This document shows, piece after piece, positions 9,497 to 62,816 of a DNA stretch of 64,000 bases. The notes under the pieces are model-generated. The model searched no databases. It worked only from the letters and a program-made list of their open reading frames with translations, and had not been told where the DNA came from. The number at the start of each line of letters is the position of its first letter. Within the stretch, counting starts at the first letter, position 1. Position numbers and translations under genes: made by a program. Source of the stretch: Intestinibaculum porci (GTDB lineage Bacteria > Bacillota_I > Bacilli_A > Erysipelotrichales > Coprobacillaceae); the NCBI RefSeq assembly GCF_003925875.1, contig NZ_AP019309.1, positions 2,294,001 through 2,358,000 on the forward strand, given 5' to 3'.

Positions 9497-10169
9497 CGTT
9501 AATCGTCAGGGCTTTGCCCTGGTGAATGATACTCATCATCGGAGCTTCATCAACGAAGCTCTTTTTTGTTTTGGTCATTGATTTGAAAGCTAAGATCTGT
9601 GCATTTTTCTTACCAACATAGGAGTAAGAAAGTAATGGTGAAACTTTCATACGGGTCATCTTAACCTTTAACGATGAGGCGATACTGATATGATTGAAGT
9701 TATTAAAAGTCATCAATGCTTCATGCGGATCGGTAAAGACCTGTTTATGATCACTTAAGATCAATGTCCCCTTCTTGCCAGAAAAAGAGAGCACACTGCG
9801 TTTGCCAGCCATTTCGATATTACGCAGATGGACTTTGCCAACAATTTTGATTTTTAAGAAATCATCCGCATTATAAATATTGAGCTTTAAAGCTGGTTTA
9901 TTGACCTTCGTAATCGTCAAAGTATTGGTTTTTGCACTATACTTAAAGCCTTTGACTTTCTTCTTTTGGCCGTTTTCTAATAATTTGGTCACTTGCGGAT
10001 CATATTCTCTTAGGCGTAATTTCTTACGTTTCTTGGCTTTAAATGCATAGTAAGCTTTGTTTAAAGCCGCATAGTTATCAAGCCGAATGACCATCCGGCT
10101 TTGCCCATGGACCGGTATAATCGGCATTAAGACCATGATGAGTAAGACAGTGAACATTTTTTTCATCAT
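9492..10169 (-). CDS. Small exported protein of unknown function, last gene of the YfhO operon
   Basis: 225 residues with a signal peptide (MMKKMFTVLLIMVLMPIIPV, cleavage probably near HGQS). The mature part is very basic (KAKKRKKLRLREYDP, LENGQKKKVKGFKYSAKT) and beta-rich, with short alternating segments such as LTITKV, KIVGKV and GTLILSD that could build a small solenoid. No catalytic motif is visible. The ATG overlaps the TGA of the upstream SGNH gene (ATGA), so the two are translationally coupled and belong to the same operon. A positively charged exported protein next to a teichoic acid glycosylation set might bind the anionic polymer (inference). I recognise no family. Confidence 0.8.
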   Translation of the reverse strand: MMKKMFTVLLIMVLMPIIPVHGQSRMVIRLDNYAALNKAYYAFKAKKRKKLRLREYDPQVTKLLENGQKKKVKGFKYSAKTNTLTITKVNKPALKLNIYNADDFLKIKIVGKVHLRNIEMAGKRSVLSFSGKKGTLILSDHKQVFTDPHEALMTFNNFNHISIASSLKVKMTRMKVSPLLSYSYVGKKNAQILAFKSMTKTKKSFVDEAPMMSIIHQGKALTING

Positions 10170-46926: not shown

Positions 46927-47901
46927 TTATTTTCGTGAGTCAATCGCAAATGGTTCTTCAGTTACAAGCGGATAACTTGTCAATTCCTTGCCATCTAAAT
47001 CATGATCATGCAAATCAATACCATGGATACGGCTATTATTATAGGTCGTGTAATAATAGATCCCCTTTTCTACGTTGCAGCAAGATGAGTAAATGGTATA
47101 TTCATAAGCACCTGGTTTCACTTCACATAAGCCTTTCTGCTGCTCTACGGAACCTAAGATTTTAAAGAACTGGTTGACGGATTCATTTTCACTGTCTCCG
47201 CAAAGAGAATTCAGTTTTGTGTAAACACATTTAATGAATCTTGATTTACTTGATAAATCACCTGGTAAACCAAGGCCGCCCATTCCACGTGAATATAATT
47301 CTAATGGTGTACCAAACGTGTTTTCTGGCTGTTTTGGTGATAATGATGCATAATCGTTGAGAGCAAACATCATATAGTTAAATGGTGGGTTGTTGGTCAT
47401 AACACCAACCGGATTATCATAAACATGTAAGCCATCTTTCATAGATTCAACTACAATTGATTCGTTCTTGTCACTAATCATCCAATGCAATGTGGCATTT
47501 GGCATTTCTTTCGAGAATGGTTCGTTATAAATAGAAATGTTTTCTAACTTCTCTCGCGCCTGAGCAACGGTTTCACAGGTACTTAAAATGTAAGGAATAA
47601 ATTCAAAAGATGTGACATTATCCTTGCCTTCCTGTAAATCAAAGAAATGACAGTTCCCAGGGAAGTTTAGTCCAGCCATGGATAAACCTTTTTCATTGGT
47701 GGCATCATAATAGAGAGGGAAACCGCCTAAAACTGTCGCCATCCCAATCAGAGCATAATGGGTAGTGAGATCTTCACGTGCACGCATTGGGAAAACAAAG
47801 TTTCTCGGTGTGACCGTCACACTTTCGTTATAGGAGAAATCCAAATCAAGATTTCTTCCAAAATAATGATCTTTCGTAGCAAACGAAATTACTGTACACA
47901 T
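46927..47901 (-). CDS. bsh: Bile salt hydrolase (choloylglycine hydrolase)
   Basis: 324 residues, the normal size. Cys 2 after the initiator Met is the nucleophile (MCTVISF), exposed when Met is removed. GRNLDLDFSYN carries the catalytic Arg and Asp, GLSMAGLNFPGN the first conserved Asn, GVMTNNPPFNY the second, and LGLPGDLSSKSRFIK the late Arg. The pattern GLNFPG and GLPGD fits bile salt hydrolase better than penicillin V acylase. The enzyme is cytoplasmic and frees taurine or glycine from conjugated bile acids, which indicates life in an animal gut. CAAGGAGG precedes the ATG. It has its own strong promoter and terminator. Confidence 0.95.
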   Translation of the reverse strand: MCTVISFATKDHYFGRNLDLDFSYNESVTVTPRNFVFPMRAREDLTTHYALIGMATVLGGFPLYYDATNEKGLSMAGLNFPGNCHFFDLQEGKDNVTSFEFIPYILSTCETVAQAREKLENISIYNEPFSKEMPNATLHWMISDKNESIVVESMKDGLHVYDNPVGVMTNNPPFNYMMFALNDYASLSPKQPENTFGTPLELYSRGMGGLGLPGDLSSKSRFIKCVYTKLNSLCGDSENESVNQFFKILGSVEQQKGLCEVKPGAYEYTIYSSCCNVEKGIYYYTTYNNSRIHGIDLHDHDLDGKELTSYPLVTEEPFAIDSRK

Positions 47902-47933
47902 AATTTGTACCTCCTTGTATGATTTCTATGTTC

Positions 47934-47962
47934 ATTATAGGTTCAGTGCTATGTTCACTCAA
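47934..47962 (-). promoter_or_regulatory. Promoter of the bile salt hydrolase gene
   Basis: Minus strand TTGAGT (47957-47962), exactly 17 bases, then TATAAT (47934-47939), about 33 bases before the ATG. It looks like a strong constitutive promoter. Confidence 0.8.
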
Positions 47963-48137
47963 GTAAAGTCGCATGATTTTACGATTTTTTTCACTTACCA
48001 TATCAATAATGTATAGGTCATATGAAAAGAGAATATTAGAAAACGGTCTTTTTTCAAGATTCACTTGCAAAGAAGAAGAAAGGATGCTAAAAGATTTTAT
48101 ATTTTGCTTATTTTGAAATTGTAAACCACAAATCTAA

Positions 48138-49106
48138 GTGTTATCCTGTAATTACGAGGAAGTGATTCTTATTCATTCAGAAAAAAATTTTCAAACTCTT
48201 GAAAATCAAATTCGTATTCTCAAAGCCAAAGGATTAGTAATTCAAAATCCATCAGTTGCCAAGAAATGGTTAAGCCAATGCAATTATTACAATTTCATCA
48301 ATGGCTATAAGGAGCTCTTCTTAGACTATAAGCGGATCAATGAGGATCCTCATCACCACGAAGTATTTAAACCCAATACCACCATTGAAGAATTAAAACC
48401 CCTCTATGATTTTGACCGAGAATTACGAATACTCACCCTTAAATACCTTTTCATCATTGAACGAAAATTTAAATCCAACCTTGCTTATTACTTCGAACAA
48501 TTTCATAAATCCCCCAATGCCTATTTATATGCCGAAAATTATGATCAAACCAGAACAAAGAATGTAAATAGAACTATTATCATTCTTAAAAAAGAATATA
48601 ATAGAGCCAGTAGAACTGAAACATCCCATAAACATTACATCAAATCAATAGAACATGTCCCTTTATGGGTCTTCATCAATTTTATTTCTTTTGGTACATG
48701 CAGCAAAATGTATAAGAACATGAATTCTAGAGAACAAACTCTCATATCCAAAAGTATAGCACCATCATTAGAAATTCAAGATTTATCAGCGTTTATGGAA
48801 TACCTCACAAATATTCGTAATATTTGTGCTCATGATGAACGTTTATACGCTTATATTTGTTCTAGCATGCCACCAGGAATGCCATTAATGCAATACTTTC
48901 ATCTTTCAGAGAAAGCAAGGAAATCATATTTTGGACTAATAATCACTTTAAAATACTTCCTTTCACGAAAAGAGTTCAACTCCTATTATCACAAATTAAA
49001 AATTTTATTTCAAAATTTAGATAGCCATACTCATACAATGAGTATCAAAAAAGTTTATCGAAAAATGGGCTTTCCTCACAACTGGAAAAATATTAACCAT
49101 ATCTAA
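48138..49106 (+). CDS. Abi_2/AbiF-family abortive infection protein (HEPN type)
   Basis: 322 residues if GTG at 48138 is used. Conserved blocks begin at NFQTLENQIRILKAKGLVI, and GAGGAAGTG lies at 48156-48164, so the true start may be the GTG at 48162 or a rare ATT near 48171. Abi_2 features are clear: WLSQCNYYNFINGYKELFL, FDRELRILTLKYLFIIERKF, HVPLWVFINFISFGTCSKMY and, near residue 230, NIRNICAHDERLYA. RNICAH is the RX4H motif of HEPN ribonucleases. Family members (AbiD/AbiF) stop phage growth by halting or killing the infected cell. A likely small RNA gene follows 100 bases downstream on the same strand. Codon use is more AT-rich than its neighbours, which suggests acquisition. Confidence 0.88.
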   Translation: MLSCNYEEVILIHSEKNFQTLENQIRILKAKGLVIQNPSVAKKWLSQCNYYNFINGYKELFLDYKRINEDPHHHEVFKPNTTIEELKPLYDFDRELRILTLKYLFIIERKFKSNLAYYFEQFHKSPNAYLYAENYDQTRTKNVNRTIIILKKEYNRASRTETSHKHYIKSIEHVPLWVFINFISFGTCSKMYKNMNSREQTLISKSIAPSLEIQDLSAFMEYLTNIRNICAHDERLYAYICSSMPPGMPLMQYFHLSEKARKSYFGLIITLKYFLSRKEFNSYYHKLKILFQNLDSHTHTMSIKKVYRKMGFPHNWKNINHI

Positions 49107-49172
49107 TTTTACCAGACATATAAAGAAAGAGTTCAGTTCAGCGGTTCAGAAAGGCTCAGTTTTTAAAAATCC

Positions 49173-49203
49173 TTGATTTCTATTTAAAACATGTTATTAT
49201 AAT
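49173..49203 (+). promoter_or_regulatory. Promoter of the candidate AbiF-linked RNA
   Basis: TTGATT (49173-49178), a long 19-base spacer, then a perfect TATAAT (49198-49203). Transcription should start near 49209. Confidence 0.5.
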
Positions 49204-49208
49204 TTCGA

Positions 49209-49340
49209 TAGCAATCGGATCATCGCTAGGCTTAGGAATTCGTCTAGGGGTCCCGATTCAGATGCTAGGGAGTTCTCTCGGAGATCTCCCTTGAATTTTA
49301 TCTTATTACTATGGCCAGATCTCATGATCTGGTCTTTTTC
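49209..49340 (+). ncRNA. Candidate structured RNA next to the AbiF gene (possible abiF-type RNA)
   Basis: About 130 bases between a promoter and an intrinsic terminator, with no open frame. Helices I can pair by eye: an outer AATCGG/CCGATT (49213-49218 with 49253-49258), a nested CTAGGC/GTCTAG (49226-49231 with 49242-49247, one G-T) with a ten-base loop, then AGGGAG/CTCCCT (49267-49272 with 49286-49291) capped by CTC/GAG, then the terminator stem. No gene follows on this strand, so it is not a leader or riboswitch. A conserved RNA motif named abiF, found beside Abi_2/AbiF genes, has been described by comparative genomics. Position and strand fit that, but I could not test the consensus. Confidence 0.6.
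49313..49339 (+). terminator. Terminator of the candidate AbiF-linked RNA
   Basis: GGCCAGATC/GATCTGGTC stem of 9 bp (one G-T) with a TCAT loop, then TTTTT. Confidence 0.85.
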
Positions 49341-49354
49341 GTACAATCAGAGAA

Positions 49355-49382
49355 AGACGTTAGAGCAAATGCTCTAACGTCT
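49355..49382 (-). terminator. Terminator of the giant surface protein gene
   Basis: Perfect 12-bp stem AGACGTTAGAGC/GCTCTAACGTCT with a four-base loop, 28 bases after the stop codon at 49410. The T-tract after it is short and interrupted. Confidence 0.7.
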
Positions 49383-49409
49383 CTGAAGGGAGTTTAAAAC
49401 TATGTACGT

Positions 49410-52400
49410 TTAGTTTCTATTCTCTTTTTTCTTACGCGTCGCAATTAATACGCCAAGCAGGGTAATTAATGCGATACTCATCAGCATCATCTGCATCGTG
49501 ATTTCAGTTTCATCACCGGTCTTGACAGCTTCAGTCGTTGTCGTTGGCGCCGTACCTGTATCATAAGTCGTCGTCTTGACAACAGTAGGTGTCGTGTTAT
49601 CCGTATTGTAGGTTGGCACAGTTTCCTTTTCGACACTCGTATCAGTGTCTGGCGTATTCTGTGTCGCCTGTTTGCCGGAACCAGATTCTTCAGTTGCTGG
49701 TGTGGCAATGGTTGGTGTTTCTGGAGTATTTTGTGTTGGCATCGTACCATCGCCAGATTCATCAATAATTGTGGTCTTTGAAGTTGGCGTTATAACAGTG
49801 CCTGGAGTGACTTCCGGATCCTTTTGTGGATCTGGATCTTCGCTGCTTGTTACAGTCGCTGTATTCACAACATTTCCTCTTGTCACATCAAGAGCTTTGA
49901 CAACATAAGTTGTTACGAATGTTTCCTGAGCATTTGGTGATAATTTTTCAATTGTCCACTTACCGCCCGTTAATGGGTCTTCGACAACCACATTCGTTAA
50001 CGTTAAGTTACCAGTATTCGTTGCAGTAATCAGATAAGAAATCGTATCTCCTTCTTCATAACCGCTTGCAGAAGCTGGGCTGCTTGTTGTTGTCTTGGTG
50101 ATCACTACAGCTGGATGAGAAGCTTCCGTATTATCTTCCGTCTTACCATCCGTAATCTTCACTTCATCGTCCTTGTTATCAGGAGTTGGATCTTCTAATG
50201 TTGCTGTATCAACAGTCGCATTATTGATCACTTTACCCTTTACAATATCAGCTTCCTGCACTTTGTATGAGGTTGTGAAGCTTTGTGTATCACCTGGTTT
50301 TGAGGCTTTGACATCAAAGTTTTCATTGGTCATATCATCGTGAAGTTTGAAAGCAGATAATGGCAGGTTACCATCATTCTTGACAGTGATTTCATAAGTA
50401 ATCGTTTCACCAAGCTGATATGCTTTTCCATCCTTAGGTGTGCTTGTCGTCTTCTTCGTTACTGTCACACTTGGATTTGTCTTTGTGATGTCTACTTCTT
50501 CCTTGCCCGGAGTCACTTCTGGATCAGGATCAGTAGGATCATCAGGAGTTGGATCATCAACTTTATTCACGGTTGCCACATTTGTGACTTTACCCTTATT
50601 GACATCCTGCTGTGTCACTTTGTAGTTTACAGTGAAGTTTGAAGATTCTTCCTGAGGTTTCAAACTATCAATAGTGAATGTATCACCCGTTAAATCATCT
50701 TTCAGGATAATGTTCGTTAATGTTAAATTACCATCGTTCTTCGCTTTGATCGTGTAAGTAATCGTATCACCTAAGGTATACTGCTTACTTGTGTCAGCCT
50801 GTTTTGTAATTGTCAGATGCGGATGTTTATCTTCTGTTTCAACCGTCTTTTCACCTGGATTATCTTTTGGATCAGGATCATTTGGATCTTCAGGAGTTGG
50901 ATCATCGACATCTTTCATAGTAACGATATTCTTAATCTTGCCAGCGATGATGTCTTTTTCGGTAACCGTGTAAGTCACAACATGTTCATCAGAAGTCGCC
51001 TGAGGCGCTAATTTCTTAATAGTCCATGTATCACCGGTTAAAGCATCTTCGAGCTTGATATTCGTTAATGTTAAATTACCATCATTGATGGCAGAAATTG
51101 TGTAAGTGACTGTTTCACCAAGTTTATACTTCTTCGTGTCATCGGCCTTCTTGATAATAGTCAGATGAGGATTCTTTTCTTCCGTATCAACAGTTTCTTT
51201 ACCCGGTTCATCTTTTGGATCAGGATCAGTCGGATCATCAGGGGTTGGGTCATCGACATCTTTCATCGTTGCCACATTAGCCACATGACCGTTCTTAATA
51301 TCCTTTTCCGTTACGACATAAGTCGTGGTGAAGTCTTGAGATGTTTGATGAGGAGCAAGTGAGCGGATTGTCCACTGCTGATTGGTCAGATCGTCACGAA
51401 TCACAATGTTCGTTAATGTTAAGTTACCATCATTGGTTGCATGAATCGTGTAATGAATTGTTTCGCCTAACTTGTAAGCCTTCTTTTCATCAGCTTTCTT
51501 TGTAATCGTGATATGCGGATTCTTCTCTTCTGTGTCGACGGTTTCCTTGCCAGGTGTGACTTCAGGAGCTGGATCATCAGGATTATCTGGTGTTGGATCA
51601 TCAATGCGATCGACTGTAGCGACGTTCACAATCTTACCAACCTTGATATCAGATTCCGTAACTTTGTAAGTTGCGATGAGATCCTGTGAGGTTTCTCCTG
51701 GTAACAGCTTCGCAATGGTCCATGAAGACTTCGTCAGATCATCTTTAACCACGATATTCGTTAAGGTTAAGTTACCAGTATTCTTCGCATGAATCTTATA
51801 AGTAATGGTATCCCCTAACTTATATTCTTTCTGCTCAGCGGTCTTAGTAATCTTCAGTTTTGGCTTCGCATCATCGATTTCCGGTTCAGGAACTTCATCA
51901 GTGCCTTTATAAGTCTTGCCTAATGAGACATCCACTTTATTCTTGAACTGCTGAGATTTGATTTCTTCTTCCGTCACGATGTACGTTGCTTTCAGAGTGA
52001 TTTCTTCACCAGCGGATAAGGTTTCAGGAATGTCTGATGTGATCTTAACACCTGGGAGTTCTGTCACTTTCAGGGTCTTGACTTCATCATAAATATTCTT
52101 GATCTTGATTTCGAAATGAATCGTGTCACCTAACTTGTATTCTTCCGCATCATGGGATTTCGTGACAACTTTGTCATCATCCACATCATCCGTCACTGTT
52201 AACTGACCGTATTCTTTCTTGACATCGTAGTTACCAAGTTTAGCGGTATGATTGCTTAATGTGAAGGTATTGTCAGAAGAGCCAACCAATAACTGTCTTC
52301 CAGTGAAACCAGCTTTGAAGCTTTCGCCTTCCACATAAGAACCAGCGGTTACTTTCAGCTGATGATCGCCATTGGTTAAAGCAGTACCATCATAAGCTTT

Positions 52401-55400
52401 CTTTAAGGTTGCTGATGTCAGGGTTACTGGACGTTTCTTAACGGTTAACGTGCCATCAGTAATCATCATATGCTCATCATCAGTATTGAAGAAATCAGTT
52501 ACATCCTGATCACCTTTCATAATACGATAAGCAGTCACCTTATTCTCAGTTTCACCAGCATTGGTGATCTCACCCTTAATCGTCGCTTCAATATGCATAC
52601 CAGGTAAGACGCCCGCTACGGTATAACCATCATTCGTTAATGATTGACCATCATAAACTTTTTCATCACTCGCTGCAGTAATATGCATAATGACCTGTGC
52701 AGTTGTAATAGTTAAGCTGCCCGGTCTCTTGGTAATGATATAGTTCTTATCTTTATAAGCATCGGTCTTCTGGAAGCTGATGGCATTGCTTATTGTCCCA
52801 ACTTCAGTAATAGAACCAGTAGCTTTAAGATCAGAAACTTCACCATCGACAAAGCCATCACCCGTTACAGTGACATGTTTTGCCGTTAATGGCGTACCAT
52901 CATAAGCCCGCGTTACACTTTCACTTGTCAGTGTAACTTTACGTGGGGTAACTTCTAAATAACCATCATTCTTTGTAATATTCTTGAACTGATCGGTGAC
53001 ATCGTTGCCGTCTTCATCTCTAATGATGACGTCAGCTACTTTGTTAGCGATCTTACCAGCATTCGTGATTGTACCCGTCATCTTGACTTCAGCCTTGTAG
53101 TTTTCGAAACCTTCTGGCAGGATGACGTCAGCCTTATCACTAGATAATGCCTTACCATCATAAGTCTTACTTACACTTGAGCCATTGACAACGACTGCAT
53201 TTTCATTTGCGAGAATCGTTAAAGTGCCAAGATCATAAGTCAGATTGTAGTTCTTTTCTTTATAAGCATCCGTTGTTGCTAATTCAATCGTATTAGGAAC
53301 ACTACCGATCTTCTTGATTGTACCAACAGCTTTAGCGGTTGCTTCACCAGCAACGAAGCCCTGTCCAGAAATCTTCACTTCTGGTCTTGTTAATTCTTTA
53401 CCATCATAAACCTTATGGTCACTTTCACTCTTTAATGTCACATGACGTGGCGTAATCGTTAACTGACCAGAAACAGTCTTAATATTTGCAAAGTATCTTG
53501 TTACATCGGTCATACCATCCATAATCACCACGGTATTGACTTTATTTTCACCCTTGTCACCAACATTTGTGGCAGAGCCATCAGTTGTGACATAAGCGCG
53601 TAAGTTATCTGATAAACCTTCAACCGTGAATGTATCACTCGTGAGCGCTTTGCCATCATAAACTTTCGCATCAGAACCAGCCGTTACCGTAATGACAGCT
53701 GTATGTGGATTAACTGTTAAGAGGCCTTCTTCTAAGGTGATTGCATAGTCTTTTTCAGCATGCTTAGTCATCTTATAAACAATCGTGTTAGCTGATGTAC
53801 CGACTTCAATTTGCGCACCAGTAGCCGTAATGTCATAGACTTCATCATTGAAGATCTTGCCTTTTACCGTGACTTTATCATTTGCCAGAGCGATACCATC
53901 ATAATCCTTTTCATCACTTGCAGAAGTCATAGTGAGTGGACGCGCAGTAATCTTTAATGTCCCATCCATATGCGTAATAGCATCGAACTGATTTGTGACA
54001 TCCTGATCATCTTTATAGATACGGATCTCAGTAATCTTATTGTCAACGGTGCCTTCATCAACGTGAGTCACTGTACCTTTAACGGTTGCTTTATAAGTAA
54101 AGCCTTCCGGTAAGTTTTCAATCGTTGTGTTCGCATTGGTTAATGGTGTCCCATCATAAACTTTTTCATCACTAGCAGCGCGAACATGAATCTTCGCATG
54201 GCTTGCTGTAATTTCTAAAGTCCCTTCCTGTTTTGTAATCGTGTAGTTCTCTTTATTAAATGCATCATGTGTCTGATAAGTAATGGTATTAATGACTTTG
54301 CCCTTTTCAGTAATCGAACCCGTTGCTTTCACATCCGTTACTTCACCCTTCACAAAACCATCACCAGTCATATCGACAGTCGGTCTTGTTAATGGTAAGC
54401 CATTATATTCACGGCTTGCACTTGCACTTGTTAAGACAACCTGACGTTTATTCACAGTCAGTAATCCTTCTTTAGTCGTAATAGAATCAAACTGATCAGT
54501 GACATCTTTATCCTCTTTCATGATGACAACTGACTTGATTGTATTCTTTGTCTTACCAGCATCAGTGATTGTACCTGTGATTTCAGCTTTTGCAGTGAAA
54601 CCATTTGGTAAACCATCAGCAGTATAAGTTTTGTTCGTTAAAGCTGTACCATCATAAAGTTTAGAGGCATTATTTGAAGTAATCGTAACTTCTTTAGCGA
54701 TCTTCTTCACGGTCAACGTCCCAATTTCTTCTTTGATGACATAATTATCCTTATTGAAATCTTTCGTCTTGGTATAAGTGATTGGGTTATCGATAGAACC
54801 CGCTTTGGTAATCGAACCCGTCGCTTTCAGATCTTCAACTTCACCTTTCACAAAACCATCACCAGTGACTTTCACATCAGGCGCTGTTAATGGTGTGCCA
54901 TCAAATTGTTTAGACTTCGTTTCACTCGTTAAAGTGAGATGACGTTTATTAATAGTTAAAGTACCATGTGTGATATTGATATTCGCAAACTGATCAGTCA
55001 CTTCCTGATCGCCTTTTAAGATCTTATAATCTTCAACTTTGTTGGAGATGCTGCCAGCATTCTTAATTTCACCCTTAATTGTCACTTTAGCGGTAAAGCC
55101 ATCTGGTAAACCAGTTACATCATAAGACGCATTTTTCAGTGTTGTACCATCATAAAGCTTTTCCTTAGAAGCAGCTTTAATTGTAATAGTTTCTGTATTA
55201 GGGGTAATTTCTAATGTGCCTTCATGTAATTCAATATCATAGTTGCTTGCTAAATAACCATCATGTTCTTCAATCTTAATGGTATTAGCCGTTGTTCCAA
55301 CTTCAGTAATTGTACCGGTTGCCTTCGCGTTAGCTTCACCTTTGACGAAGCCATCACCAGAGACTGTAATCTTATCATTGGTTAACGGTGAACCATTGTA

Positions 55401-58400
55401 TGCCCGTTTCGCACTGCCGCTTTCAATAACGACGTGACGTTTCGTGATTGTTAAACTGCCATCTTCATGATCGATATATTTGAAGAATTTCGTGACATCC
55501 TGATCACCCTTGAAGATCTTGATCTCACTAAGCTTATTCACTGCTGGAGAATCTTTCACATTCATAATAGATCCACTTACTGTCGCTTTCACTTGGAACG
55601 CTTCAGGTAAACCAGTCACTTTATAAGTATCCTTCGTTAAGGCCTGACCATCATAAACTTTCGAAGCACTATCTGCAGTCACTTTTACCTTCGCAGTGGT
55701 ATTTTGCGTAATCGTTAAAGTACCTGGATTTTCTTCAATCGTATAGTCTAATGGATCATAACCATCATTTTTCTCGATATGAATTGTATTTTCAGCGCTG
55801 CCAACATCAGTAATAGAACCAATAGCTTTGACTTCCTTGACTTCGCCTTCCACGAAACCATCGCCAGTGATTGTCACATTTGCATTGGTTAAGGCTGTGC
55901 CATCGTATTCTTTTTCATCAGAGGCAGATTTTAAGGTCACGCTGCGCTTAGTAATTTCTAAGACACCATCATTCACTTCCGGTGTATCAAAGTAGTCAGT
56001 GACTTCCTGATCACCCTTGTAGAAATGATAGTCCTTTACTAAGTTTGCCTTAGTCCCATAATGTGTAATTTCACCTTCAACAGTCACCTTAGCTGTAATA
56101 CCATCAGGTAAACCCGTTGTCGTTGCTTCAGGGTTTTCTAATGCCTGACCATCATACATCTTAGATGCTGAGGCCGCCTGAATTACAATTTTAGCACTCG
56201 TATTCTTAGTCACTGTTAAAGTGCCAGGATGAACTGTTAAGTTATAGTTAGAAGCTTTGAAATCTTTGCTTGTGTCATACTTGATCGTATTTTTTGACTG
56301 ACCAACATCTGTTTGTGATCCCGTTGCTTGAATCGCAGAAATTTCATTATTGATAATATTACCAGTCACATGCGTTGTCATATTGGTTAATGGCTGACCA
56401 TCATATTCTTTTGTAGCTGATGCACTCGTGATTGTGACATCACGTTTAGTAACAGTTAAAGTACCTTTGACGGTCGTGATCTTATCAAACTGATCAGTAA
56501 CTTCTTCGCCATCTTTCATGATCTTATAGTCAGTAATCACATTTTCCACTTTACCAGCATCAGTAATAGAGCCAGAAATTGTCGCATATACTTTAAAATC
56601 ACTAGAAAGATTATCAGTAGTAAACGTCTTGTTTGTAAGAGGTGTACCATCATAAACTTTTGTATCACTGCCAGCTGTTAAAACAACTTCATCAGCATGT
56701 TTTGTAACAGTAAGAGTACCTTCCACTTTGGTAAAAGTATAATCTCTTTCTACAAAGTTTTCCGTTGGCGTGATTGCAATTGTATTAGTCGTAGAACCAA
56801 CTTTTGTAATTGCACCAGTCGCATGAATTTCTTTGATATCCTTATCAAGAATTTTATCACCAGTCACTTCAATGTGATCATAAGCATGTTCCTTACCATC
56901 ATAAGTAAATGTATTCGAGCCAGAAGTGATTGCAACAATTCTTGGCGTAATGGTTAATGTACCAGTCTTATAAGTGATATTGCTAAAGTATTTCGTAACA
57001 TCTTTGCCATCTTTCTCAATGACAAACGTATCCACTTCGTTATCGACTGAACCAACATGAGTGATTGTTCCTTTTGTATGCAGCTTATACGTAAAGCCAT
57101 CAGGAACGCCAGTCACTGTGCCAGCATCATTTGTTAAGGCTGTACCATCATACTTACGAGAGGTACTACCTGGAGTCACAACGATTTCAGCCGCATTCTT
57201 GTTAACTGTTAAAGTGCCTTCATGCTTCGTAATAGTGTAATTACCTGCTTTGAAGTTTTCTTTTTTTGTGTACTGAATTGTATTCTTAACAGATCCCGGA
57301 TCAGTAATTGTGCCGGTTGCTTTAATATCTTCAACTTCACCTTCCACAAAACCATCACCAGAAACAGTCACATGAGGAGCAGTTAATGGCTTACCATCAA
57401 ATGCTTTAGAATCAGTTTCACTTGTTAAAGTAACCTGACGTTTGTAAACAGTTAAGGTACCAGTGACTTTCTTAACATTCTTAAATGATCCAGTCACGTC
57501 ATTACCATCATTGTTTCTAATAATATAAGAATCGATGACATGATCAGTTGTACCTACATCAGTGATTGAACCTGTTGTCTTCACTTCAATCGTAAATAGC
57601 TTATCACTTAGACCTGTTACTTCATAACCTGCTGTTAGCGGTGTCCCATCATAAGTCTTTGAATCACTCTTAGCAGTAATCGTAATTTCTGTCTTTTCGT
57701 TATCTTTGATTGTTAAAGTACCTAAGTTATTAGTAATAGCGTAGTTACCATCTTTATAACCTTCGCCTTTGACAATTTCATAGGTATTTTCGGTAGAACC
57801 AACTTCAGTTATTGTACCAGTAGTACGAACAGTGGCTTCACCGTCGACAAAGCCCATATCACCAACAGTGATCTCCTTATTTGTTAATGGCATGCCATCA
57901 AACTCTTTAGAGGCTGATCCTGTCGTAATCGTGACTGGACGTGGCTGAACTGTTAAGAGACCTGGTTCAGTAGTAATATGTGTAAACCAATCAGTAACAT
58001 CTTTACCATCCTTAAAGATCTTAACATTGTCTATTGTATGATTTGTATAACCAGCATCAGTGATGGAGCCATGAGAATCAGCTGTCACTGTAAAGATTGT
58101 CGTATCAAGACCATTTAATACTGTAAATAAATCACTTGTTAAAGGTGTACCATCATAAGTCTTGCTTGCATCATCCGCTTTCATTGTGACTTTCTTTTCA
58201 CTCTTAGTAACGGTTAACTGACCAAGTTCTTCTTTAACTTCGTAATCATCTTTCACATTATCTTCGATCTTATAAGAAATTGTGTTATCAGATGCGCCAA
58301 CATCAGTTTGTGAACCCGTCGCTTTGATATCATGGATATCATTATTTAAGATACGAGAAGCATCATATGTAACGGTATCATTTGTTAATGGAGTTCCATC

Positions 58401-61400
58401 ATACTGCTTTTGATCACTCGCACTTATCAGTGTAAGCTTACGTGGTGTAATGGATAATTCACCATCAGTATACTGAATATCTGCAAACTGATTGGTAACA
58501 TCCTTACCTTCTTTGTAAATATGAACGGAATCTTTATTAACAACGTTCTTTACTTTACCTTCATTCACATGAGTTACAGACCCTACTGCACTTGCTGTAA
58601 AGTTATACCCATCAGGTAAACCTGACATTGTAACAGCTTCATTAGATAAAGCTGTACCATCATATTCTTTATGATCGCTCGCAGCGGTAAAAGTTACCTT
58701 CTGAGCAATTTTAGTAATCGTAAGAGTACCTTCATTTTTTGTGATCTCATAGTTAGTATCTTTATACTTGCCAGTAACACCATTAATTTGAATGGTATTA
58801 GGTATAGATCCAGCTTTAGTAATTGAACCAGTTGCTTCGACACTTTCTACTTCACCTTTGACAAAATCACCAGCAGTGATTGTGACAGCAGGTCTTGTAA
58901 GAGGCTTACCATCAAATTCTTTAGAAGCTGTTTCGCTCTTTAATGTAACTGGACGTTTTGTAACAGTTAATTTCGCATCTTTAGAAACTTCAATATTCTT
59001 AAAGCTCTTTGTAACATCTTGATCACCTTTAGTGATTGTATAAGAAGTGATCGTATTTTTGCTTTCTCCAGCATCTAGCTGTGAGCCAGATGTTTCTACA
59101 TTCACCTTAAAGCCTTCAGGTAAACCAGTTACATCAACATCCTTTGAAGTTAATGCTTTACCATCATAAACCTTAGAAGCATCTTTTAAAGCAATCTTGA
59201 TGTTTGTTTCATTCGGGGTAATCGTTAACGTACCAGGATTTGTAATCACTTTAACTTTAAAACCATTGATTTCTTTAACCTGATCATTATAACTATCTCC
59301 AAATGTAAACGTAGTTGCATATTCACCAACATCAATGCCTTCCGCTTTCGCTGTCACATCATCGATCGTAACTGTCTTGCCTTCAATAGTAAATGTGTCA
59401 TTTACAATACCTGTTACGCTCTGCTTTTCACCAGTATAAGTAACAGATTTTGATTGACCAGTAATAGTCACTTCATAACGCCACTGAGCATAAAGCTTAT
59501 TAGGCAGATCTTTTTCATCAATACCAACCTTAATGCCAGGTTTGTAAGTTGTACCACCATCATCAGCTTTGGTATTCCAGTGATCAAAGATCGCTTTCAC
59601 GCCATTACCAACCTGTGGCTTAGCTACATTAGATCCATCCGCAATGATTAACTGTGCATTGTTTTCCAGATCCTCATTAGAAGCATAAACCGCATCGCTT
59701 GAAGATGAGTTATTCGCATAGTACAGTAAGTTCACTTTTGTTGGTAATGGAATATAGTGTGCCACTAACTGAATATTGCCAGTGATCTTGATTTTATCAC
59801 CAGGATAATAGTATTCATCAGTAGCCTTTAATTCCCCATCAACAAATTTATAAAGCTGCCAGTTTAAGAACTTGCTGCCAGAAGGAGCGTCTAGAGTAGA
59901 TCCTGATTTTACATCCGCATAAGCATTTTCTGCATACTTCTTATCATCAGTCACTGTTCCACTGCCAGTTCCAGCACTGTAGTTAACAATAAACTTGCTT
60001 GTATTAATATAGTAAGGATAAAGTTCTAAATCACCATGTAATTCATTGTTAAAATTATAAAGTGTATAGCTGTCATCACTCTTAGTAGCCCAACCAATCC
60101 AATGATAGTTTTCAGGTACTGTTACAGTATGACCATTATCCCCTTCTACTAATGTCTTACCATCAGCATCAACAACCTTTGGTAAATCGCTTAATGAAAT
60201 AGTACTTGCATAATCCAAATCTTCAATTGTAGTTGTCTCATCATTTTTCAGACTGAGATGTACTTTCACATCAACTGGATCCGCTGCCCATTTTGCATAA
60301 AGCTTAATACCATGAGCAGGCATTGTTGAGTCAAACTTGAATTCTTCAGTACAAGCTTCATCTTTATACCAGCCTCTAAATGTATAACCTTCATCTAATG
60401 ATGATGGTCTTGTAGGGGTATAATTAGCATACTGTGATAATGGAGCTTCGTATTTAACTTTTACTGACTTATCTTCATGATCATAGTTATAGTACTCTAA
60501 GTTATAATCATTACGTTTAAATCGAATATCAAGATTAGTTGTATAAGAGATACCGTCATCATAAGTTCCATCCGAATTCTTTTTATCTAATTTTTTCCAA
60601 TCACCATTATCAGCTTTATACTGATATGCTGTAAAACCAGTGTACTTATCCGTTATATAGAAAGTACCTCCATCCATTTCAACTGACTTATCAGGGCTTA
60701 AACTAAATGAACCATCTAATTGCTGTTTAAAGAAATTGACAGATGCACCTTTTCTCTGAACAGGATAAAAATGAATTGTATCCTTCGTTAAATCTGGAGA
60801 AATATAAGCGTCCAAGAAAGATAATGTATTTTCATATTGATTCAACCATTCATAGTATTTACCATAACCCCATAAAGTAGAGTATTTGTAACCATATCGA
60901 TGATAAGAGGTAGGCCAATCATCAAATTTTTGACCGTATAAACCGGTATACTTTTTCCCACCATTTACAAATTCATTTGACCCTGAAGGAAAATGGAAAA
61001 TAAACGTAACTTCTTTACGATCGTAGTAAACATTCAATGTTGTCTTACCATCAGCAGTTACAGTTTTGCTTGAATCTGCTTTCTTAAATATAAAACCAGT
61101 ATAATTCTTCTTTTTATCTGCTTCAGTTACGGAAACTGATTCACCAGTTTTAGCAATTCGTGGAACAGAACTTTCTACTTTATATGTTTTCTCTGCATCA
61201 GCTGAATTGACTTTATCATCAATAGATTGCTGCCAGAAAACAACCGAATAGTTTGTATCATCAGCTTCCCAGACTGCATGAAGGGTAATATCTTCTGATA
61301 ATGGATTTCCAGTAACATATTTAGTTCCATCTTCTGTTATAGACCAATGCTTAAAGGTATAACCTTTGCGCTTTGGTGTAGGTAATGAATCATTAGTCAC

Positions 61401-62816
61401 ATTTTCTTTTGCGGCATAGAACTTAGGTTCAATATAAGAACCGTTCTTACCAGTTTTAAAAGTGATATAGTGACCAGATTCAATCTTTGGATATAATCTG
61501 ATATCACTTGTTCCAAGTGTAATTGTATCTTCTACTTTTTGAGTCAGTGCTTGATCACTATACCAGCCAGTTACTGACTGATCAGAGGCTAAGTCTAATT
61601 TGATATCAGTAGTAGATACTTTATCTCCTTCTTTGCCTTCCTTAGTTGTGAAGACACGGGCACCTTCAGCTGCACTATCCATAAAGAATACATAATGAAC
61701 TTCTTCAAAGACTGCATAAATATTGTGTTCTTTACCATCAATTTCAGCTTCACTATATTCTTTGAAAGCGTCAAAATTAGGTTTTGCAGCATCTTTTGCA
61801 GTTGCCCATCCTAAGAACTTATAACCAGTTTTCTCCGGTGATTTTGGCTTCTTTAAGGTATCGCCAGCTTTAATTTTCTGCGTATACTCAGAAATAATTG
61901 TATCACCATCATAGAATTTGTAAGTTGAGATGACGGGATCATTCTCACCGGCAATGATATAAATACTAAAGCTTTTCGCATTGAATGTAGCTTTATGATC
62001 ATTGACTGATGCAGCCATTTTCTCAATTGTGCCACTATCTTTCTGATGCACAACTTTGAAATCCTGTCCATCTAAACTCTTGTTTAACGTCATACTAACA
62101 TGAACGGCATTCGCATCCGCTGGCTGTAATTCCTTACCATCTTTAAAGAAAGAAATATCAGCCCCAATAGCATCAGTAATGACTTTGTCATCTTTCACTG
62201 TCTTCTTTGCAATATTTTTAGCGACAGTTGAGCTAACGGGAGTCACTTTCATTTCCGTGCCATTTGGGAATACGTTTGCATCCACACTAGCTGTTACTTT
62301 TAACTGACTCGTTGAACCAGTAAAAGTCTGTGCCGGCATCGCATTTTCTGCAGCTTTCTTTTCTGCCTCAGCTTTTTCCGCTGCTTCTTTCTCAGCTTTT
62401 GCCTTTTCTTCAGCGGCTTTCTTTTCAGCTGCTGCTTTTTCCTGTGCAGCTTTCTTCTCTGCTTCAGCTTTTTCCGCCGCTTCTTTTTCGGCTTTAGCTT
62501 TTTCTTCAGCGGCCTTTTGTGCTGCCGACGGGTCCTCACCACTTGACTTATTGGCATCTGTTTTTTCTTCAACTTTTGTTGATTCAGTTGCCTCATTCGA
62601 AGCAGGAGGAGATTCTTCATTGGTTTGACTTGTATTTGCATTATTATTTTCTGTTTCTGCTGTTACTGAGTTTTGATCAGAAACAGCAGTTGTTGTAGGC
62701 TCTGAAGATACTGTCTCGCCTTGTGCAAATACACTCATTTGCATCATGGAAAAGACCATTGTCATCGCTACAACGTAGGAAACAGTTTTACGAGCAAATC
62801 GTTTCATCCTGTCCAT
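49410..62816 (-). CDS. Giant 4,468-residue surface protein with InlB B, MBG and DUF11-type repeats
   Basis: ATG at 62816 follows AAGGAGG. Layout: signal peptide 1-32 (SYVVAMTMVFSMMQMSVFAQ); acidic Asn/Glu/Thr region to about 95; Ala-Lys-Glu coiled coil to about 160; a unique domain to 290; InlB B-type repeats with GYKFLGW-like pieces to about 1118; 29 MBG-type modules (YDGTPLTN signature) to about 3540; seven DUF11/DUF7507-like repeats (YKLGDTITYTI, NDGNLTLTNI, VDDPTPDDP) to about 4330; a Thr/Pro-rich wall spacer; then VKTGDE, a membrane helix (MMLMSIALITLLGVLIATRK) and a basic end. No classical LPxTG is present; VKTGD may be a variant sorting signal (inference). It is probably an adhesin reaching far beyond the wall. 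It is monocistronic with its own promoter and terminator. Confidence 0.93.
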   Translation of the reverse strand: MDRMKRFARKTVSYVVAMTMVFSMMQMSVFAQGETVSSEPTTTAVSDQNSVTAETENNNANTSQTNEESPPASNEATESTKVEEKTDANKSSGEDPSAAQKAAEEKAKAEKEAAEKAEAEKKAAQEKAAAEKKAAEEKAKAEKEAAEKAEAEKKAAENAMPAQTFTGSTSQLKVTASVDANVFPNGTEMKVTPVSSTVAKNIAKKTVKDDKVITDAIGADISFFKDGKELQPADANAVHVSMTLNKSLDGQDFKVVHQKDSGTIEKMAASVNDHKATFNAKSFSIYIIAGENDPVISTYKFYDGDTIISEYTQKIKAGDTLKKPKSPEKTGYKFLGWATAKDAAKPNFDAFKEYSEAEIDGKEHNIYAVFEEVHYVFFMDSAAEGARVFTTKEGKEGDKVSTTDIKLDLASDQSVTGWYSDQALTQKVEDTITLGTSDIRLYPKIESGHYITFKTGKNGSYIEPKFYAAKENVTNDSLPTPKRKGYTFKHWSITEDGTKYVTGNPLSEDITLHAVWEADDTNYSVVFWQQSIDDKVNSADAEKTYKVESSVPRIAKTGESVSVTEADKKKNYTGFIFKKADSSKTVTADGKTTLNVYYDRKEVTFIFHFPSGSNEFVNGGKKYTGLYGQKFDDWPTSYHRYGYKYSTLWGYGKYYEWLNQYENTLSFLDAYISPDLTKDTIHFYPVQRKGASVNFFKQQLDGSFSLSPDKSVEMDGGTFYITDKYTGFTAYQYKADNGDWKKLDKKNSDGTYDDGISYTTNLDIRFKRNDYNLEYYNYDHEDKSVKVKYEAPLSQYANYTPTRPSSLDEGYTFRGWYKDEACTEEFKFDSTMPAHGIKLYAKWAADPVDVKVHLSLKNDETTTIEDLDYASTISLSDLPKVVDADGKTLVEGDNGHTVTVPENYHWIGWATKSDDSYTLYNFNNELHGDLELYPYYINTSKFIVNYSAGTGSGTVTDDKKYAENAYADVKSGSTLDAPSGSKFLNWQLYKFVDGELKATDEYYYPGDKIKITGNIQLVAHYIPLPTKVNLLYYANNSSSSDAVYASNEDLENNAQLIIADGSNVAKPQVGNGVKAIFDHWNTKADDGGTTYKPGIKVGIDEKDLPNKLYAQWRYEVTITGQSKSVTYTGEKQSVTGIVNDTFTIEGKTVTIDDVTAKAEGIDVGEYATTFTFGDSYNDQVKEINGFKVKVITNPGTLTITPNETNIKIALKDASKVYDGKALTSKDVDVTGLPEGFKVNVETSGSQLDAGESKNTITSYTITKGDQDVTKSFKNIEVSKDAKLTVTKRPVTLKSETASKEFDGKPLTRPAVTITAGDFVKGEVESVEATGSITKAGSIPNTIQINGVTGKYKDTNYEITKNEGTLTITKIAQKVTFTAASDHKEYDGTALSNEAVTMSGLPDGYNFTASAVGSVTHVNEGKVKNVVNKDSVHIYKEGKDVTNQFADIQYTDGELSITPRKLTLISASDQKQYDGTPLTNDTVTYDASRILNNDIHDIKATGSQTDVGASDNTISYKIEDNVKDDYEVKEELGQLTVTKSEKKVTMKADDASKTYDGTPLTSDLFTVLNGLDTTIFTVTADSHGSITDAGYTNHTIDNVKIFKDGKDVTDWFTHITTEPGLLTVQPRPVTITTGSASKEFDGMPLTNKEITVGDMGFVDGEATVRTTGTITEVGSTENTYEIVKGEGYKDGNYAITNNLGTLTIKDNEKTEITITAKSDSKTYDGTPLTAGYEVTGLSDKLFTIEVKTTGSITDVGTTDHVIDSYIIRNNDGNDVTGSFKNVKKVTGTLTVYKRQVTLTSETDSKAFDGKPLTAPHVTVSGDGFVEGEVEDIKATGTITDPGSVKNTIQYTKKENFKAGNYTITKHEGTLTVNKNAAEIVVTPGSTSRKYDGTALTNDAGTVTGVPDGFTYKLHTKGTITHVGSVDNEVDTFVIEKDGKDVTKYFSNITYKTGTLTITPRIVAITSGSNTFTYDGKEHAYDHIEVTGDKILDKDIKEIHATGAITKVGSTTNTIAITPTENFVERDYTFTKVEGTLTVTKHADEVVLTAGSDTKVYDGTPLTNKTFTTDNLSSDFKVYATISGSITDAGKVENVITDYKIMKDGEEVTDQFDKITTVKGTLTVTKRDVTITSASATKEYDGQPLTNMTTHVTGNIINNEISAIQATGSQTDVGQSKNTIKYDTSKDFKASNYNLTVHPGTLTVTKNTSAKIVIQAASASKMYDGQALENPEATTTGLPDGITAKVTVEGEITHYGTKANLVKDYHFYKGDQEVTDYFDTPEVNDGVLEITKRSVTLKSASDEKEYDGTALTNANVTITGDGFVEGEVKEVKAIGSITDVGSAENTIHIEKNDGYDPLDYTIEENPGTLTITQNTTAKVKVTADSASKVYDGQALTKDTYKVTGLPEAFQVKATVSGSIMNVKDSPAVNKLSEIKIFKGDQDVTKFFKYIDHEDGSLTITKRHVVIESGSAKRAYNGSPLTNDKITVSGDGFVKGEANAKATGTITEVGTTANTIKIEEHDGYLASNYDIELHEGTLEITPNTETITIKAASKEKLYDGTTLKNASYDVTGLPDGFTAKVTIKGEIKNAGSISNKVEDYKILKGDQEVTDQFANINITHGTLTINKRHLTLTSETKSKQFDGTPLTAPDVKVTGDGFVKGEVEDLKATGSITKAGSIDNPITYTKTKDFNKDNYVIKEEIGTLTVKKIAKEVTITSNNASKLYDGTALTNKTYTADGLPNGFTAKAEITGTITDAGKTKNTIKSVVIMKEDKDVTDQFDSITTKEGLLTVNKRQVVLTSASASREYNGLPLTRPTVDMTGDGFVKGEVTDVKATGSITEKGKVINTITYQTHDAFNKENYTITKQEGTLEITASHAKIHVRAASDEKVYDGTPLTNANTTIENLPEGFTYKATVKGTVTHVDEGTVDNKITEIRIYKDDQDVTNQFDAITHMDGTLKITARPLTMTSASDEKDYDGIALANDKVTVKGKIFNDEVYDITATGAQIEVGTSANTIVYKMTKHAEKDYAITLEEGLLTVNPHTAVITVTAGSDAKVYDGKALTSDTFTVEGLSDNLRAYVTTDGSATNVGDKGENKVNTVVIMDGMTDVTRYFANIKTVSGQLTITPRHVTLKSESDHKVYDGKELTRPEVKISGQGFVAGEATAKAVGTIKKIGSVPNTIELATTDAYKEKNYNLTYDLGTLTILANENAVVVNGSSVSKTYDGKALSSDKADVILPEGFENYKAEVKMTGTITNAGKIANKVADVIIRDEDGNDVTDQFKNITKNDGYLEVTPRKVTLTSESVTRAYDGTPLTAKHVTVTGDGFVDGEVSDLKATGSITEVGTISNAISFQKTDAYKDKNYIITKRPGSLTITTAQVIMHITAASDEKVYDGQSLTNDGYTVAGVLPGMHIEATIKGEITNAGETENKVTAYRIMKGDQDVTDFFNTDDEHMMITDGTLTVKKRPVTLTSATLKKAYDGTALTNGDHQLKVTAGSYVEGESFKAGFTGRQLLVGSSDNTFTLSNHTAKLGNYDVKKEYGQLTVTDDVDDDKVVTKSHDAEEYKLGDTIHFEIKIKNIYDEVKTLKVTELPGVKITSDIPETLSAGEEITLKATYIVTEEEIKSQQFKNKVDVSLGKTYKGTDEVPEPEIDDAKPKLKITKTAEQKEYKLGDTITYKIHAKNTGNLTLTNIVVKDDLTKSSWTIAKLLPGETSQDLIATYKVTESDIKVGKIVNVATVDRIDDPTPDNPDDPAPEVTPGKETVDTEEKNPHITITKKADEKKAYKLGETIHYTIHATNDGNLTLTNIVIRDDLTNQQWTIRSLAPHQTSQDFTTTYVVTEKDIKNGHVANVATMKDVDDPTPDDPTDPDPKDEPGKETVDTEEKNPHLTIIKKADDTKKYKLGETVTYTISAINDGNLTLTNIKLEDALTGDTWTIKKLAPQATSDEHVVTYTVTEKDIIAGKIKNIVTMKDVDDPTPEDPNDPDPKDNPGEKTVETEDKHPHLTITKQADTSKQYTLGDTITYTIKAKNDGNLTLTNIILKDDLTGDTFTIDSLKPQEESSNFTVNYKVTQQDVNKGKVTNVATVNKVDDPTPDDPTDPDPEVTPGKEEVDITKTNPSVTVTKKTTSTPKDGKAYQLGETITYEITVKNDGNLPLSAFKLHDDMTNENFDVKASKPGDTQSFTTSYKVQEADIVKGKVINNATVDTATLEDPTPDNKDDEVKITDGKTEDNTEASHPAVVITKTTTSSPASASGYEEGDTISYLITATNTGNLTLTNVVVEDPLTGGKWTIEKLSPNAQETFVTTYVVKALDVTRGNVVNTATVTSSEDPDPQKDPEVTPGTVITPTSKTTIIDESGDGTMPTQNTPETPTIATPATEESGSGKQATQNTPDTDTSVEKETVPTYNTDNTTPTVVKTTTYDTGTAPTTTTEAVKTGDETEITMQMMLMSIALITLLGVLIATRKKKENRN
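49830..52190 (-). repeat. Seven DUF11/DUF7507-like repeats in the giant surface protein
   Basis: Units of about 110 residues start with TITKKAD-like and KLGDTITYTI segments and end with ATMKDVDDPTPDDPTDPDP-like linkers. Units 2-5 are nearly identical, the first and last two are diverged. Boundaries are approximate. Confidence 0.8.
52200..59460 (-). repeat. Array of 29 MBG-type modules in A/B alternation
   Basis: The YDG, FDG or YNG signature occurs 28 times after a first diverged copy. Odd and even modules differ: A modules read GLPxGF and KDGxDVTxxF, B modules read GDGFVxGE and NYxITKxxGTLTI. From the second to the last the order is strictly A-B, giving 14 pairs of about 165 residues. Boundaries are approximate. 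Confidence 0.85.

Follow-up and report, generated by a model that had tools for sequence, protein, structure and literature searches.

The window analysed here, a stretch of 64,000 nucleotides from the gut bacterium Intestinibaculum porci, contains a gene for an Abi_2 protein of the AbiF type, a predicted HEPN ribonuclease, and a complete promoter-RNA-terminator unit (49173-49339) about 100 nt 3' of this gene. From sequence, structure model and analogy, we consider it probable that the two form a toxin-antitoxin pair, with the cognate RNA antitoxin encoded downstream of the toxin (a 3'-RNA arrangement). The case for the AbiF identity of the protein, which draws on its sequence and its modelled fold, is strong. 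The case for the downstream RNA as its partner is good but indirect. The module is ordinary in kind and unusual in layout, as the RNA is found on the downstream side, has a sequence type of its own, and occurs as a tandem pair in what is apparently a sister strain.

The Abi_2 gene (48138-49106, + strand) matches the Pfam family PF07751 over its full length at 9e-41 and the PADLOC model AbiD at 1e-54. The first-pass annotation had read an intact RNICAH (RX4H) nuclease motif in the protein, and this is confirmed: the motif is encoded at 48816-48833 (+), and its R, N and H are invariant in a 13-protein alignment. Among solved structures, a profile of 13 relatives matched 8VZ6 (PbAbiF) only, at 1.9e-28. 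The AlphaFold2 model of the window protein (pLDDT 88.5) has the same entry, which is titled 'PbAbiF dimer bound to ncRNA', as its sole significant Foldseek match (E 6.5e-11, TM 0.77). Since profile and modelled fold both match 8VZ6 alone, the protein is, by sequence and model, of the AbiF kind. Its nearest sampled relative shares merely 38% identity with it. Searches of viral contigs, phages and plasmids returned no relatives of the RNA, and no close relatives of the protein beyond 20-40% identity.

Translation probably does not begin at the annotated GTG (48138). In the 13-protein alignment, the homologues start near 48171, and they carry methionine at a position that is isoleucine in the window protein. 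The sole good ribosome-binding site, GAGG at 48156-48159, has the right distance to an ATT at 48165, whereas a GTG at 48162 is rather near to it (48156-48167 for site and candidate starts together, + strand). The true start is therefore probably near 48162-48171.

The RNA unit also has the features that had been described for it, on the same strand as the gene and about 100 nt behind it. A sequence scan places the -35 element TTGATT at 49173-49178. It may be combined either with TATTAT at 49195-49200, a -10 element extended by TG (16 nt spacer), or with the overlapping TATAAT at 49198-49203 (19 nt spacer). The RNA repeat unit of about 96 nt (49207-49302, +) is predicted to fold into two hairpins. 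The first (49213-49258), supported by folding and pair counts, has an outer stem AAUCGG/CCGAUU, a 3-nt left bulge (AUC), an inner stem of 49222-49231 with 49242-49251, and a 1-nt right bulge (C). The second (49267-49291), AGGGAG.UCUC/GAGA.CUCCCU, has 10 pairs. An intrinsic terminator of 9 pairs and 5 T follows at 49313-49339. It is the only one detected within 47880-49450 and would be common to the gene transcript and the RNA. As the terminator scan found none from the Abi_2 stop to 49313, Abi_2 transcripts should read into the RNA.

The module had been placed between a mobile element and a surface gene, which holds on one side. Downstream, a gene for a repeat-rich surface protein of 4468 aa, in which a domain search found DUF7507/DUF11 domains near the C-terminus, occupies 49410-62816 on the minus strand. 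Upstream, a gene of the choloylglycine hydrolase family (46927-47901, minus strand; CBAH at 1.9e-100) separates the IS110 element from the Abi gene, its immediate and divergent neighbour. A reading of the RNA as an IS110 bridge RNA was rejected by position only, the RNA being 2.6 kb from the element.

Similar units stand behind other Abi_2 genes of the same genome. In a sample of 395 kb plus the window (317 genes), intergenic promoter-terminator units lie downstream of 9 genes. These include all three intact Abi_2 genes (that of the window and those at 838887 and 3056004), compared to 6 of the 314 other genes. The associated p values (1.6e-5, or 5.6e-4 without the window gene) are partly post hoc, because two of the loci had been seen before the count and the regions sampled include them. 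The other six units include one RF03085-like RNA near an Abi_2 fragment, one tRNA, and two that overlap apparent coding sequence. A 43-nt element is common to the units behind 838887 (two copies) and 3056004, and the first stems of these RNAs differ by two compensatory pair changes (AAAACGA/UCGUUUU versus AAAACAU/AUGUUUU). The two small RNA copies behind a third Abi_2 gene, at 839849-840068 of the genome (around 9855-10050 of locus L095), are in tandem and promoter-bearing, and their element recurs behind the gene at 3056004.

A search of 295 genomes of the order gave a single relative of the window RNA, on contig C92 of genome G134 (loci L122 and L129). G134 is assigned to another family. As C92 carries the same surface-protein gene, with 97-98% identity to its end, it apparently comes from a strain of the window's species and was misbinned; the alternative is a recent transfer. 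In L122, the RNA unit is present in two tandem copies, at 387-482 (85% identical to the window unit) and 505-600 (98%), and a counterpart of the window promoter stands ahead of the second copy. The pair is preceded by the C-terminal part of a different Abi_2 allele, broken by stops and a frame change. Identity between window and L122 falls from 97% to 63% at window position 49171 (L122 position 469), at the RNA promoter. The drop suggests a recombination that swapped the toxin gene and retained the RNA and the surface gene. The surface gene of the L122 strain also contains an additional repeat copy close to its 3' end. According to the first-pass annotation, conservation of the RNA in relatives without the Abi gene would have spoken against a joint module. 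This was found in part: the RNA persists in L122 where the Abi_2 gene is broken, which we count against the partner reading, and it does so beside a decayed remnant of another allele rather than in the absence of any.

The tandem copies allow a comparison of structure. The window unit and the 85% unit are separated by 14 substitutions, and each of the two forms 25 of 26 pairs, with one pair lost and one gained; all pairs of the second hairpin are kept. One pair is changed on both sides (C-G to U-A, compensatory) and four on one side. Random substitutions of the same types keep the structure as well in about 1% of trials (p about 0.01). As these data come from a single divergence, and as general covariation shuffles with three sequences only were not significant (157/500), the support for conservation of the RNA structure is moderate.

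In relatives, RNA units are typically found on the other side of the gene. In 71 Abi_2 relatives, we looked on both flanks for a sigma-70 promoter with a hairpin and T-run behind it, and used 106 ORFs from the same loci as controls. An upstream unit was present within 250 nt of 28 of the 71 Abi_2 genes and of 1 of the 106 control ORFs (p 3e-12). Downstream units were not enriched (7/71 versus 10/106), and downstream position alone is therefore weak evidence. The window gene has no RNA unit in the 250 nt upstream, and has its unit downstream instead. The leader RNAs form short hairpins, most of which have a 2-3 nt left bulge and a short inner stem; strict folding recovers this form in 15 of 26 leaders and in 8% of shuffles. 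An H-type pseudoknot in the leaders (GUA...UAC) was considered and dropped, as nested inner stems account for them equally well. Two leader copies are present in L015, L016 and L027, and in L011 and L046 the usual hairpin is found 85-90 nt 3' of the Abi_2 gene on the same strand. Five loci (L010, L013, L015, L067 and L068) have a copy on the opposite strand just 3' of the gene. It shares the core of the leader (UAUCCCGUGUGGAC type in several), so that the Abi_2 gene lies between two converging RNA-like hairpins.

Most class-level matches (L004, L005, L066-L088) come from one family, f12, with genomes of 0.6-1.6 Mb, in which an Abi_2 homologue occurs in genome after genome. RNLCAH is kept in L004 and L005, where the next gene is for an HtrA-like protease, and a leader RNA is present in few. 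In this family, Abi_2 seems to be inherited vertically and does not resemble a patchy defence gene.

The first-pass annotation had connected the window RNA with the abiF RNA motif of Rfam. With the RF03085 covariance model, no match was obtained in the window at the gathering score, or over 47900-49450 at E up to 10, and membership in this family was rejected. Of the proposed protein-RNA module, the pairing retains the support of the 8VZ6 match, of the units at all intact Abi_2 genes of the genome and of the structure kept between tandem copies, but the RF03085 identity falls. RF03085 gave one match in the 43 genomes of the family, below the cut-off (27.3 bits), at 508782 of the same genome as the window and 2 kb from an Abi_2 fragment. 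This RNA (L037, 1450-1720) is accompanied by a second half-copy, its promoter (TTGACA-TATAAT) matches the consensus, and it seems to be an orphaned antitoxin RNA. A covariance model built from the leader hairpins of the relatives (R1) also misses the window RNA, its best + strand score (7.2 bits) lying elsewhere; the sensitivity of R1 is low, because one or more of the loci used to train it were missed as well. In its bulged hairpin architecture, the window RNA looks like the leaders, but 14% of its shuffles give this form too. Matches of 30-38 nt to the promoter region in other genomes were set aside, as they do not reach into the RNA.

A rather unlikely alternative, and the most serious one, is that the RNA belongs to the surface-protein locus or is a small RNA in its own right, and merely lies beside the Abi_2 gene. 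The missing matches to known abiF RNA models, and the lack of downstream enrichment across relatives, would fit. So would the position of the 98% copy in L122, on the side of the boundary that remains about 97-98% identical through the surface gene. However, the two L122 copies lie essentially one on each side of this boundary, the other copy thus being on the side of the Abi_2 remnant. Moreover, the RNA stops short of the surface gene, which is itself on the opposite strand, and the units at all three intact Abi_2 genes contrast with 2% of other genes. Less probable still is a decaying toxin-antitoxin remnant, in which the RNA would have served as antitoxin to a previous allele, or to a second gene since lost, and the gene now present would be poorly translated or not its partner. 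The replacement of M by I at the expected start, which leaves it without ATG, the lack of an upstream leader RNA, and the broken, different allele beside the same RNA in the sister contig agree with this explanation, as does the state of the remaining Abi_2 copies in the genome, which are split or fragments. Against it, the window frame is uninterrupted over 322 codons, every catalytic residue is present, and homology extends over the full length. Finally, a chance coincidence of a promoter-like match and a terminator hairpin in an AT-rich intergenic stretch, with no functional RNA, is very improbable: the promoter match by itself is at chance level (9 found versus 7.6 expected), but the RNA folds at -47.9 kcal/mol compared to -36.2 in shuffles (z -3.05, 2/200), it was tandemly duplicated with its structure kept, and such units are rare in the genome. 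It is the complete unit in intergenic space that is unusual, not the promoter.

If the Abi_2 protein and the downstream RNA are toxin and antitoxin, the RNA would be produced in excess from its own promoter. With no terminator in between, it would also be the 3' end of the toxin mRNA, and might be processed from it. By homology with PbAbiF-AbiFr and AbiFCd-RCd22 (PMC12737573, PMC12373285), the RNA would bind the HEPN dimer and block its general RNase activity. A falling RNA supply in phage infection, or release of the protein by other means, would then let the enzyme cut cellular RNA and stop growth. As the RNA follows the gene and is not an upstream leader, it cannot attenuate toxin transcription in the way of RCd22, and control would therefore rest on RNA-protein binding alone. 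More tentatively, the locus may represent a 3'-RNA class of AbiF systems, with a downstream, self-promoted antitoxin RNA that acts purely by binding without leader attenuation, can duplicate in tandem, and stays in place while adjoining toxin alleles are exchanged.

Among known systems, the closest is the PbAbiF-AbiFr toxin-antitoxin complex (PDB 8VZ6; PMC12737573). The window protein shares with it the HEPN fold from end to end (TM 0.77), the RX4H site, and one RNA gene beside the protein gene. However, the proteins are 20% identical, and the RNAs are unrelated in sequence by any test made here. AbiFCd-RCd22 from the Clostridioides difficile prophage phi027 (PMC12373285) also has an Abi_2 protein with RN.CAH (RNQCAH in AbiFCd), and an RNA of similar size (about 100-130 nt), with a SigA-type promoter, stable hairpins and an intrinsic terminator. 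RCd22 carries RF03085 motifs, is placed upstream as a leader and has a dual action, premature termination of toxin transcription and protein binding (PMC12373285), whereas the window RNA is downstream and lacks RF03085. The RF03085 motif itself is likewise a small hairpin RNA linked to abiF genes, but its hairpin is bulged on the other side. Type III toxin-antitoxin systems (ToxIN, CptIN) also combine an RNase toxin with an RNA antitoxin, and their antitoxin repeats recall the tandem RNA in L122. In contrast to these systems, the window toxin has a HEPN fold, the RNA is downstream with its own promoter, and the ribonucleoprotein is only putative. Many of the Abi_2 loci examined have RNA units that escape the single Rfam motif; these belong to several sequence types and occur both upstream and downstream of the gene. 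AbiF-RNA pairs have been proposed as ancestors of the RNA-guided Cas13 enzymes (PMC12737573). An RNA that stands apart from the toxin leader shows how it could uncouple, duplicate and change on its own, as would be required in the evolution of a guide RNA.
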